Both the position numbers and the translations under genes were made by a program. Positions 10,641-13,999 of a DNA stretch of 64,000 bases are shown here, in pieces (positions within the stretch are counted from its first letter, which is position 1; every line of letters begins with the position of its first letter). Source of the DNA: an uncultured Sulfitobacter sp. GTDB lineage: Bacteria; Pseudomonadota; Alphaproteobacteria; Rhodobacterales; Rhodobacteraceae. The notes beneath the pieces were generated by a model. It made no database searches, was not told where the DNA came from, and saw nothing but the letters and a program-made list of their open reading frames with translations. Location: the NCBI GenBank assembly GCA_947502265.1, contig CANMZB010000014.1:1-64000 (forward strand). The letters run 5' to 3'.

Positions 10641-10904
10641 ATGAAGATGACCAGATATAGCGAACCCCAGATCCTTGCGATCCTGCGCCAAGCCGAAAGC
10701 GGTGTGCCTGTGGCTGAGCTTTGCCGTGAACATGGCATGAGCAATGCATCATTCTACAAGTGGCGGGCGAAGTATGGCGGGATGGATGCGTCCATGGTCA
10801 GCCAGATGAAAGCCATGGAGGAAGAGAACCGCAGGCTGAAGCGGATGTATGCCGATCTGAGCATGCAGAACGATCTGTTGAAGGAAGCCCTCGGAAAAAA
10901 GTAA
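10641..10904 (+). CDS. IS3-family transposase OrfA
   Basis: This 87-residue protein carries the helix-turn-helix of IS3 OrfA ([16 protein letters not shown], then [22 protein letters not shown]) followed by a leucine-rich coiled coil (about residues 55-83) that mediates assembly. It ends at a TAA directly after the slippery run, so about all ribosomes that do not slip release OrfA alone. OrfA binds the element ends and regulates transposition. Frame and spacing relative to OrfB look intact. Confidence 0.9.
10895..10901 (+). other. Programmed -1 frameshift site (AAAAAAG) of the IS3 element
   Basis: Six A residues followed by G lie immediately before the OrfA stop. A -1 slip here joins OrfA to the OrfB frame, producing the OrfAB transposase. 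This is the standard expression mode of IS3-family elements. Confidence 0.8.
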
Positions 10905-10927
10905 CGGGGCCATCTCAGCGCCGCGAG

Positions 10928-11728
10928 ATGGCCGAAACGGCGGTGGAACGACGGGGCGTCAGCATCGCTCTGGCGTGCAGGGCCTTCGGTGTCAGCGAGA
11001 CCTGCTATCGTTACAGCCCGAAGCTGAAGGACGAGAACGAGGTGATCGCCGATCTGCTGACAGGGCTGACCGATGCGCGCAAGACTTGGGGGTTTGGCCT
11101 GTGTTTCCTGCACCTGCGCAACGTGAAGGGGCATCCGTGGAACCACAAGCGGGTCTATCGGATCTACTGTCAGTTGGAACTGAACCTGCGCATCAAGCCC
11201 CGCAAGCGATTGAAGCGGGATAAACCTGACGTTCTGGCCGTGCCGGACGCGCCGAATGTGACCTGGTCTATGGATTTCATGGCTGACCGCCTCGGCGATG
11301 GTCGAGCTTTTCGGCTATTGAACGTGTTGGATGACTTCAACCGTGAGGGGCTGGGGATCGAGGTTGATTTCTCGCTGCCAGCCGAACGGGTCACACGGAG
11401 CCTCGATCGGATCATAGAATGGCGAGGAAAACCGGGCACGATCAGGATCGATAACGGCCCCGAATATATCAGCGAAACGCTGAGAAAATGGGCTGTGAAA
11501 CATGGCGTTACGATCCAGCACATCCAACCCGGCCAGCCCCAGCAGAACGCTTATGTCGAGCGCTACAACCGCACCGTTCGGCACGAATGGCTGGACCAAT
11601 ACATCATCGAAAGCATTGAGAAGGCACAGGATCAGGCCACACAATGGCTCTGGACTTACAACAACGACCGCCCCAACATGGGGATCGGCGGCATAACACC
11701 CGCCATGAAACTGAAAATGGCCGCATAA
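10928..11728 (+). CDS. IS3-family transposase OrfB (DDE integrase domain)
   Basis: The frame contains the rve-type catalytic domain with all three acidic residues: [15 protein letters not shown] and [10 protein letters not shown], the last followed by the usual basic segment. The stand-alone start given is ATG 10,928; the active enzyme is expected as an OrfAB fusion made at the slippery site 10,895-10,901. The protein ends in [13 protein letters not shown], typical of this group. No lesion is seen, so the element may still be mobile. Confidence 0.88.
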
Positions 11729-11860
11729 GTTCTATGAATGAGCCCCGTTAAAAATGGGGGGATTACCGAGTTTAACCGAGCATAGTTTTCCAAGACCGAC
11801 AGTGAATATGTTGCCAATTACCATTACTTCAGGGGGAGTTCCTGTATCGCACAAGTGAGG

Positions 11861-12055
11861 TTAGGTGTTTAGTCCCGGCATCTGGTGGATCGGGTCGAGG
11901 GTGAATCTTTCTGGCTCTGAAGTCCAGGTTTTGCAAATGTATTCGTAGGGCGTGAGGTCGCTGAGAGTTTTGAGTCTGCGGGCGAAGTTGTCGGCAGTCA
12001 TGAAGTCGCCGAGATGTGTTCGCAGCTGATCATGGTTGTCGTAATGGTATCGCTT
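11861..12055 (-). pseudogene. C-terminal fragment of an IS481-type transposase, interrupted by the IS5 element
   Basis: On the minus strand the frame encodes about 65 residues ending FTLDPIHQMPGLNT, with RRLKTLSDLTPYEYICKTW before it. This is the typical C-terminus of IS481-family transposases in Rhodobacteraceae. The upstream catalytic domain is missing: the frame is cut at 12,055/12,056 where the IS5-family inverted repeat begins, and the missing part is not found beyond the other end of that element. The fragment is therefore a remnant of an earlier insertion. Confidence 0.75.
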
Positions 12056-12575
12056 GGCTTTGTTGCACAAATCAGCACTAATGGGGATTCATGTTGGGAA
12101 TCCAGTCTGATGGCGGGCTGGAATGAGCAGTTGGATCCTTACGAAGTATGCGACCAGGAACCGGTCTTATTACAATCATGCCCTGAAGCAGCGAGGTTCG
12201 CTGGAGGTCTGGTTTGATCTTGAGGTGGACTGGACAGCCAAGCCTACGGGAAGTCGGGGTCGACAGCCGCTGTACAGCGATGCTGCAATCCAGGTCTGCC
12301 TGATGATCAAAGTTCTGTTTGGTTTGCCGCTACGGCAGACGACAGGGTTCGTGCAAAGCCTGTTGAATCTGGCCGACCTCGACTGGGAGGTTCCGGACTA
12401 TAGCACGCTGTGCAGACGACAGAAGTCTCTGCCTGTTGCCGTCCCCTATCAAGGTTCAAAGGGTCCACTACACCTGCTGGTTGACAGCACCGGCATCAAA
12501 GCCGAGGGCGAAGGCGAGTGGAATGCCCGCAAACACGGCGGCACCAAACGCCGCCTCTGGCGTAAGATACACATA

Positions 12576-12615
12576 CCTCGCCCGGCAGGGCATTGCACGG
12601 CAATGTCCCGAGAGG
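12576..12615 (+). repeat. 40-bp hairpin insert, copy 1 of a small palindromic element
   Basis: The insert begins cctc and ends tcccgagagg. Its centre folds as ggg + cattgc, loop acg, gcaatg + bulged t + ccc (12,588-12,609). It interrupts the transposase codons for KIHI/GIDE. Copy 2 at 12,958-12,998 lies in the opposite orientation and shares the flanking blocks caggg and tcccgagagg. Confidence 0.7.
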
Positions 12616-12957
12616 GGGATCGACGAGCAAACGCTGGAGATACGTGCCGTCGAGGTGACAGGGAGCAACATCGGTGATGCCCCCATGCTTCCCGATTTAC
12701 TCAGCCAGATTGCGCCAGACCAAGAGATTGGGAGCGTCACGGCAGCCGGAGCTTATGACACCCGCAAGTGCCACGATGCCATCGCAGCTCGGAACGCACA
12801 TGCGGTCATCCCGCCGCGCAAGAACGCGAAGCTGTGGAATCCAGACACACCAGGTGCAAGGGCACGAAACGAAGCAGTTCGATCCTCAAAGTATCTGGGC
12901 CGCGCACTTTGGCGACGATGGTCTGGCTACCACCGCCGAAGCCGCGTCGAGACGAAG

Positions 12958-12998
12958 CCTCTCGGGATCATGCTGCGCATAACCCTGTCGGCCAATGG
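12958..12998 (-). repeat. 41-bp hairpin insert, copy 2 of the small palindromic element, inverted
   Basis: Read on the minus strand it contains caggg, ttatgc, loop gca, gcatga and tcccgagagg, the same layout as copy 1. The inner 6-bp stem differs in sequence but still pairs (one G-U). It interrupts the transposase after RVETK, with VHCVKLL following in the restored frame. Confidence 0.7.
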
Positions 12999-13318
12999 GT
13001 GCATTGTGTGAAACTGCTCGGTCAGCGCCTTACCGCGCGGGACTTCGATGGGCAGGTCGCGGAGATCCAAATCCGTGCCGCGATCCTAAACGGCTTCACA
13101 GCTCTTGGCATACCGCGCACAATGGCTGTAGGCTGAATCCGTCTGGGGTAAGGGGAAGTCCAAACTCAAGCTGATTTGTGCAACAAAGCCGGGCCGCGGA
13201 TGACTACAAGACAACAGGACACGTCAGACCGCCGCACGCGATTACTGATACTTTCCTTCCACCCCTATTCCCGCGTCATTTCAGATGTCGACTATCTTGG
13301 AAGCTTACGCCCGGCCTC

Positions 13319-13999
13319 TCATCCCGTCATGAACACATCGTAGCGCGTTGATTTGCCAAGTATCTGGTGCGAACATGCCCGTATCCCCTTGATCGGATCT
13401 GCCTTCGCAGGCCATTTTAGAACCACACGATTGCGTGCATTCTCTAGTGCAACACGCACCAGATCGGCCGCGTCATCATCCGTTCCAACGATCTCGCGGA
13501 CTTGGCGTAGCTCGCGCTTTACCAGCGCCGAATTTTTACGTGGTGGATGCATTGGATCAATCAATATTGCTTCGCCAGACAACTCAGGCAGCAAATCCCT
13601 GGCATCTCCCTTCAAGAGAGTCATGCGCCCAATGATTTCGCGAAGTTCGCCGCCTTCTTTCACCGCCCGATCCATGCCTTGAACCAACAAAGAATGCATT
13701 TTCTCCGACCGTTCGATCAATGTGACCTGTGCCCCTAACGATGCCAGTAAAAACGAGTCGCGGCCCAAGCCTGCCGTGGCGTCAACAATCATTGGCGTTT
13801 TACCCGCGCGCAGCCCCATTGCTTTTGCCAACGCTTGCCCGCGTCCCCCGCCAAACCGGAGCCGGTGCGCGACGGCACCGCCGACAAAATCAACCCGCAA
13901 CTCGCCAACACTCTGTTTCATGCTCTGCTCATCGCCATTTCCTGCATAGACTTCAAAATCCGCAGATCGCTTTGCCCGAGGATGCGCAATGCGCGACAT
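13319..13999 (-). CDS. rsmJ: RsmJ-like 16S rRNA (guanine-N2) methyltransferase
   Basis: The 226-residue protein has a class I SAM-binding fold: VDATAGLGRDSFLLASLGA for cofactor binding, LIERS for the ribose, and DPMHPPR as the catalytic motif IV (DPMFPHR in E. coli). RsmJ methylates G1516 of 16S rRNA in the cytoplasm. An N-terminal LRVDFVGGAVAHRLRFGGGRGQ segment matches the family's nucleotide-binding lead-in. It is slightly shorter than E. coli RsmJ. RsmJ is best known from gammaproteobacteria, and the gene stands next to an IS-rich region, so acquisition by transfer is possible; a vertical origin is not excluded. Confidence 0.85.
   Translation of the reverse strand: MSRIAHPRAKRSADFEVYAGNGDEQSMKQSVGELRVDFVGGAVAHRLRFGGGRGQALAKAMGLRAGKTPMIVDATAGLGRDSFLLASLGAQVTLIERSEKMHSLLVQGMDRAVKEGGELREIIGRMTLLKGDARDLLPELSGEAILIDPMHPPRKNSALVKRELRQVREIVGTDDDAADLVRVALENARNRVVLKWPAKADPIKGIRACSHQILGKSTRYDVFMTG

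Follow-up and report, generated by a model that had tools for sequence, protein, structure and literature searches.

The window, that is, the whole stretch of 64,000 nucleotides of Sulfitobacter DNA that was analysed, contains an IS5-family element whose transposase gene is interrupted twice. The initial annotation had described two hairpins of 40-41 bp in opposite orientation within this gene, and both were found at the places given, with the coding pieces otherwise intact. The features of the element are listed below.

12056..13190, plus strand: IS5-family element bearing both hairpins; ends read directly off the sequence
12123..12575, plus strand: transposase coding piece 1 (residues 1-151 of intact relatives), open; tblastn, Pfam DDE_Tnp_1_5
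12576..12616, plus strand: hairpin copy 1, net insert 40 bp, ends uncertain by 1-2 bases; model and alignment
12616..12957, plus strand: transposase coding piece 2 (residues 152-265), in another frame, open; tblastn, Pfam DDE_Tnp_1
12957..12997, minus strand: hairpin copy 2, net insert 41 bp, ends uncertain by 1 base; model and alignment
12999..13133, plus strand: transposase coding piece 3 (residues 266-310), open, in the first frame again; tblastn

The element is bounded by perfect terminal inverted repeats of 21 bp (12056-12076 and 13170-13190). Its plasmid relatives align across query positions 12060-13190, and those annotated as intact are about 1045 bp long. In a tblastn comparison, the intact 310-aa IS5 transposase matched in three pieces in alternating frames, with the breaks exactly at the hairpins and zero stops; the third piece is back in the first frame because 40 + 41 = 81. 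The intact relative spans residues 1-151, 152-265, and 266-310 without stops, in agreement with the claim that removal of the inserts restores the frame. Intact relatives carrying the same segments would have refuted the claim, but those annotated as intact that were compared carry neither. The covariance model (R1) matched hairpin copy 1 at 12571-12618 and copy 2 at 12955-13002. At the first site, a clean 40-bp gap was observed in all 12 other covering copies. The second site was empty in 7 of 14 other covering copies and filled in the other 7, which include copies from this genome, from P. inhibens plasmids, and from one Pseudosulfitobacter plasmid, the last with a different stem.

The fold energy of the two copies alone was unremarkable (z from -1.50 to +0.56 over both strands), and thermodynamic stability was set aside as weak evidence. 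A sequence pattern allowing 3 mismatches was not rarer than chance in the window (1.85 expected), and both matches found there have 0 mismatches. Rfam returned nothing at E≤1 across 11500-13500. An open frame at 11861-12050, adjoining the left end of the IS5 element, resembles the C-terminal end of another transposase, which we take to be IS481-like, and a two-frame IS3-type element, in which the hairpin pattern found no copy, lies beside the IS5 element at 10641-11728.

A covariance model built from 15 hairpin copies was used for the search for further copies that the initial annotation had proposed. In this genome it gave at least 35 matches at E≤0.001 (100 of 2557 candidates scored) and at least 45 at E≤1 (150 of 2662 candidates scored). 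Matches at E≤0.001 were present in 22 of 61 genomes of the same family, Rhodobacteraceae. Class-wide, where the scoring was limited to 15 candidates in each genome, 10 of 385 genomes matched at E≤1e-4, and five of the 10 did not belong to the family. Among plasmids, 97 records matched, and the hairpin 48-mer had no match in phages at E≤0.01. An exact pattern scan of the genome collection returned at least 118 stretches. Nearly all of the 80 listed titles were Rhodobacteraceae or other Rhodobacterales, the exceptions being two entries of Vreelandella neptunia, one Hyphomicrobiales, one Robiginitomaculum bin, and two unplaced alphaproteobacteria. The Vreelandella neptunia entries (L057, L087) come from an assembly labelled as gammaproteobacterial and carry these hairpins in IS-like DNA, which implies either horizontal transfer or contamination.

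Copies were also collected with a motif scanner. Over 1.27 Mb of fetched DNA it detected 316 copies, 214 of them distinct, compared with 0 in the reversed sequences used as control. The scanner was designed after the first copies were known, and because it requires a stem, pairing is built into the copies that it reports. It misses a common bulged-stem class as well as copies that are degenerate (the fourth hairpin of the IS3 in genome G013 is one), and its counts are therefore lower bounds. Before clustering, 198 of the 214 copies passed the mismatch filter, and 179 of these 198 had enough flank.

The family consensus is YRTC followed by CAYTGCCCGGCAR-stem-YGAGAGGG, a fixed frame around a variable inner stem that still folds. 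In a logo of 209 copies, the observed order of parts was YRTC, CAYTG, NCC, GGCA, a closing R-Y pair, an inner stretch of 15-22 bases, GAGA, and GGN. The YRTC site was variable (Y 77%, R 90%, T 78%, C 84%), and 124 different inner sequences were present. The last outer pair was C-G in 166 copies, A-T in 11, and G-C in 7 (n=209); where its 3' base was T, the next base was always T (11 of 11). The inner stem-loop sits within a 4x4 internal loop formed by GGCA and GAGA.

Covariation within a shared fold, which had been inferred from the inner stems of the two window copies, was borne out on 15 family members. Paired cells amounted to 98.3%, compared with 82.2% in shuffles, and 7 of 12 pairs had changed on both sides; neither value was reached in 500 shuffles. 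Further pair types were reached by 14 of 500 shuffles. The initial annotation had described variation in the inner stems; the outer CCC/GGG stem also varies compensatorily. Folding was assessed independently of the scanner on 125 exact matches picked by their flanks alone, with 91 distinct inner sequences. An unbroken end stem of at least 5 bp was present in 79 of the 125, or in 58 of the 91 distinct sequences against a shuffle mean of 5.4, and many of the other 46 matches belonged to one bulged-stem class. Among the distinct inner sequences, 86 of 91 folded better than the mean of their own shuffles.

The unit of insertion was read from the IS3 element of G013, in which inserts of 38, 40, 38, and 38 bp are the sole indels relative to three intact IS3 references (from Phaeobacter, strain SC52, and Pseudosulfitobacter). 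Two of the four inserts follow YRTC or a one-base variant, and the other two follow GGAC and TAAC. Each terminates with the outer stem, so that the inserted unit is a single hairpin. Apart from one ambiguous base, none of the sites compared (two in IS5, four in IS3) showed a target duplication. The proposal of a small mobile palindrome entering coding DNA was upheld by these exact empty sites, by tens more copies in the genome, and by hundreds in relatives. Mobility was, however, deduced from the comparison of empty and filled sites, and no jump has been observed.

Beyond the initial annotation, the coding DNA entered proved to be a transposase or other IS gene in most testable cases, across many unrelated IS groups. 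At 72 of 73 non-redundant loci, we selected the longest open frame in the 360 bases on either side of the hairpin, which yielded 142 fragments. These matched 28 Pfam families, and of the 25 listed, 18 were transposase or IS families, 6 were helix-turn-helix families, and 1 was of another kind. As a control, 96 fragments at least 2 kb away in 33 loci matched 42 Pfam families, with no IS family among the 25 listed. We then considered all 39 singleton copies (34 stretches, one fragment each, Pfam E≤0.01). Twenty-six lay beside a named transposase or IS family, 21 of them above the Pfam cut-off; 4 had only helix-turn-helix families, which are common in transposases; 1 lay beside another family (SnoaL_4); and 8 were uninformative, several of these being transposase-like by eye. 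The singleton fragments were chosen by us, mostly as the most transposase-like near the hairpin, which may hide non-IS neighbours, whereas the survey of 72 loci used the longest frame.

At least eight IS groups are affected, with up to five hairpins in one IS copy. The Pfam names in the flanks presumably stand for IS3, IS4/5, IS6, IS21, IS66, IS91, IS110, and IS256, and IS630 is likely also among the groups. Of 60 listed plasmid places, 53 had no annotated feature, 3 were in transposase genes, 2 were in hypothetical genes, and 2 were in unannotated records; the 53 are uninformative because pseudogenes are absent from the feature table. Relative to the gene, 58 distinct inserts were oriented plus in 25 cases, minus in 30, and undecided in 3. 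The frame was broken by 53 of the 58, and the length was a multiple of three in only 5, which ruled out in-frame translation of the inserts.

A second finding that goes beyond the initial annotation is that hairpin-bearing ISs have themselves multiplied. In three genomes they were observed as 3-6 near-identical copies, with no close hairpin-free sibling found. G013 has six full-length IS3 copies, all with the same four hairpins, the others being 98.5-99.2% like the first. A DNA search of this genome found no full-length hairpin-free IS3 sibling, and the remaining matches were fragments. Plasmid pDSHI04 of Dinoroseobacter shibae has three identical IS5 copies of about 920 bp with two hairpins, and the hairpin-free IS5 relatives in that genome are 73-75% alike. 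G055 has four IS5 copies with two hairpins (98.9-99.7% alike), and its sole hairpin-free relative found is alike across 115 bp only. In P. porticola, an IS3 contains five hairpins, and two of four IS3 copies (L371-L374), at different places, have in common a 131-bp internal deletion between GTCACC repeats. The deletion removes one hairpin together with coding DNA, indicating that a surely broken IS3 copy was moved or copied. It could alternatively have been spread by recombination; another pair of copies has a common flank.

Some sites were used more than once. Codons 265 and 151 of the IS5 transposase were each entered by hairpins with different stems. The carriers of a codon-265 hairpin form no clade, in a tree that is unsupported and whose support was not examined. 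At codon 265 one stem class occurs more often than at other places (7 of 14, compared with 15 of 200 elsewhere), with the reservation that the Fisher tests treat related copies as independent and that the classes were chosen after the data were known. The excess may reflect repeated site-specific insertion or an old insertion with precise losses, and we could not decide between them. Gene conversion was rejected as the cause of the equal hairpins at IS5 position 795, as local divergence was not below expectation (ratio of local to upstream divergence 0.84 in same-class carriers and 0.80 in free copies).

Other palindromic inserts were also seen in this transposase in other genomes. A second family of 61-62 bp was present at IS5 reference positions 189, 192, 598, and 598 (L338, L350, L354, and L363); it contains TTCAGCCCTGAA and GGGCGTC-type motifs and is possibly a CGTC-tagged REP. 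A 42-bp insert of other sequence, a multiple of three, was found at reference position 393 (L336), in a transposase with no other indels within the part compared.

The explanation that we favour, with rather better than even confidence, is that a non-autonomous hairpin of Rhodobacteraceae and related bacteria enters DNA near YRTC as a lone copy, causes no duplication, and travels with ISs that are moved in trans. A single unit of about 37-43 bp would insert after the preferred YRTC, leaving no target duplication. The combination of a fixed frame (CAYTG, the NCC/GGN outer stem, and the GGCA/GAGA loop) with a nearly free hairpin sequence suggests that the enzyme probably reads the fold, and by analogy with Y1 transposases of the IS200/IS605 type, we infer that it may recognise a folded single strand. 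This enzyme is unidentified and, by inference, seems to act in trans. Copies would accumulate in transposase genes of unrelated ISs, mostly breaking the frame, and the broken ISs would then be copied with their hairpins, most likely by transposase from relatives. This last step, also inferred, is weakened by G013, where the longer transposases of other IS3 elements have only 25-37% residue identity, beside fragments at 50-78%, so that the source acting in trans is not evident now.

The observed preference for transposase genes remains unexplained. The hairpins might be directed specifically to the transposase genes of unrelated ISs by an active process. Such a process could be a hyperparasite living on ISs, or it could be a host defence that disrupts ISs and so amounts to a bacterial version of repeat-induced mutation; some sites seem to attract the same hairpin class repeatedly, as in homing. 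We regard this as possible but doubtful. Insertion might instead be unselective, with survival only in ISs as the sole dispensable DNA, which we consider unlikely. Many carriers are decaying, and the codon phases were flat in four pairs that share a hairpin and separated recently (5.6-9.4% divergence in the flanks), as such a sink would allow. Intergenic DNA should, however, then hold many copies, yet only 9 of the 39 singletons lacked an IS-type Pfam signal (intergenic density was not measured), and the accumulation of up to five hairpins per IS, with several copies having 2-4 hairpins and no other indel, also argues against a mere sink.

Another reading, to which we give only a small chance, is that the hairpins are skipped in expression, by translational bypass or removal from the mRNA, so that carrier ISs still make transposase; there are no RNA or protein data. 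The multiplied copies are in its favour, namely the six IS3 copies of G013 with neither another indel nor a full-length free sibling and the IS5 copies of D. shibae and G055. On the other hand, the G013 copies differ mostly by residue-altering changes, one at the first start codon (judged by eye), and hairpins occur in both orientations within one gene, so that their RNAs differ.

Whether the interrupted genes are still used was assessed by comparing 56 IS copies with intact references. Forty-two were carriers, with 75 hairpins; some of these carriers are not independent of one another, since the set includes 4 of the 6 G013 copies and repeats of G055 and G031 copies. The 42 carriers contained 52 other frameshifting indels, many of them in a few poorly aligned copies, and several carriers with 2-4 hairpins had none. 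The codon-position count was limited to carriers of the hairpin family; an earlier version had taken any insert of 28-70 bp. In the IS5 carriers that could be polarised (25 of 29), the carriers' own changes fell 25/16/59% at codon positions 1/2/3, compared with 21/11/67% in hairpin-free partners. Carriers thus appear somewhat relaxed, which speaks against skipping, while they retain a strong third-position bias that trans mobilisation does not require and that weakens the favoured explanation. Stops were present in 10 of 29 carriers and 8 of 29 hairpin-free copies, as skipping would allow. In a clade of four IS5 copies with a common hairpin at codon 207, dN/dS was 0.12-0.25, compared with a median of 0.11 for 182 hairpin-free pairs; this site was, however, seemingly filled more than once, also outside the clade (L073), so that the ratio may predate insertion. 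The four recent pairs show no codon-phase bias, contrary to skipping, and in these and two further pairs at 14% the hairpin had 0-1 differences while the flanks differed by 6-14%. In our reading of these data, the hairpins mostly entered working ISs recently, and these ISs then decayed and were mobilised in trans, but expression through the hairpin remains possible.

The hairpins could also be ordinary REP elements moved by a RAYT (Y1) transposase, a possibility we hold to be improbable. They are imperfect palindromes with a conserved foot, with neighbours in opposite orientation and a structure kept despite sequence change, and in G015 the only hairpin match shares its contig with a Y1 match, at a distance of about 8.7 kb. 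Copies inside IS genes rather than mainly intergenic, and a single insertion unit, do not fit REPs. Moreover, the Y1 family (PF01797) does not track the copies: it was present in 7 of 61 genomes and absent from G013 (27 matches), G002 (12), G035 (11), and G039 (7), and in G000, G007, and G044 no match among those listed shares a contig with the Y1 gene. Reverse transcriptase (PF00078) was likewise considered as the mover and rejected, as its presence (21 of 61 genomes) does not track the copies; it was absent from the window's own genome and from G000, G055, G002, and G044. An assembly or sequencing artefact or chance palindromes can practically be dismissed, because the element recurs in many genomes and complete plasmid records and was absent from the reversed control.

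If the hairpins can find transposase genes, this would be a new kind of targeting or defence; if hairpin-broken ISs stay active, there would be hidden processing of bacterial messages; and if ISs are merely a sink, past insertions can be counted there. All three readings are testable in Dinoroseobacter shibae, with its three identical hairpin-bearing ISs on one plasmid.

MITEs are short non-autonomous repeats, and the hairpins are likewise short and non-autonomous, but they lack target duplication at the sites compared and have no recognised terminal repeats of a known IS. IS200/IS605-type elements insert 3' of a short fixed target without duplication; at the hairpin sites no duplication was seen and YRTC is preferred rather than fixed (GGAC and TAAC at two of the four IS3 sites), and one hairpin is the inserted unit instead of two hairpin ends bounding an element. 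Mitochondria of Magnusiomyces capitatus contain, according to the portion of the paper available, many short frame-breaking block inserts that are bypassed in otherwise intact genes (PMC5009743); the hairpins differ from these in having no demonstrated bypass, in occurring in both orientations, and in lying mostly in IS genes. Rickettsia RPE-4 and RPE-6 are palindromes inside coding genes and are reported, in the sections consulted, as encoding residues of varied host genes (PMC3733652), whereas most hairpin inserts break the frame.

No description of the hairpin family was found in the literature searched, which was covered partially, by titles and abstract openings, and a term search of the main texts of PMC3733652 and PMC12306157 found no mention of Rhodobacter or Roseobacter. 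CGTC-tagged REPs are described, in the accessible part of the source, as mostly alphaproteobacterial, some intragenic, without a known dedicated transposase and with few and fortuitous links to transposase genes; they have a fixed CGTC tag, stems of 8-9 bp, loops of 4-5 bases, and mostly CCA tails (PMC3733652). The hairpins are likewise mostly alphaproteobacterial, with some copies intragenic and no dedicated transposase known, and their preferred YRTC site includes CGTC, but, as far as that account goes, the hairpins differ in their outer stem, their 4x4 internal loop, and the variability of YRTC. REPs and BIMEs are, in the excerpts available, short, dispersed imperfect palindromes with a conserved foot, often in opposite orientation and with compensatory changes, mostly extragenic, and rayt genes are flanked by REPs (PMC2817692). 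The hairpins resemble them as imperfect palindromes with compensatory changes but, against this partial description, differ in lying in transposase genes, in being inserted singly, and in having no linked Y1 gene. The hairpins are thus closest in form to REPs and CGTC-tagged repeats, yet they fail the defining position, tag, or transposase of these. Descriptions of small palindromic repeats usually place them outside genes and link one large class of them to Y1 transposases; the family described here has neither trait.
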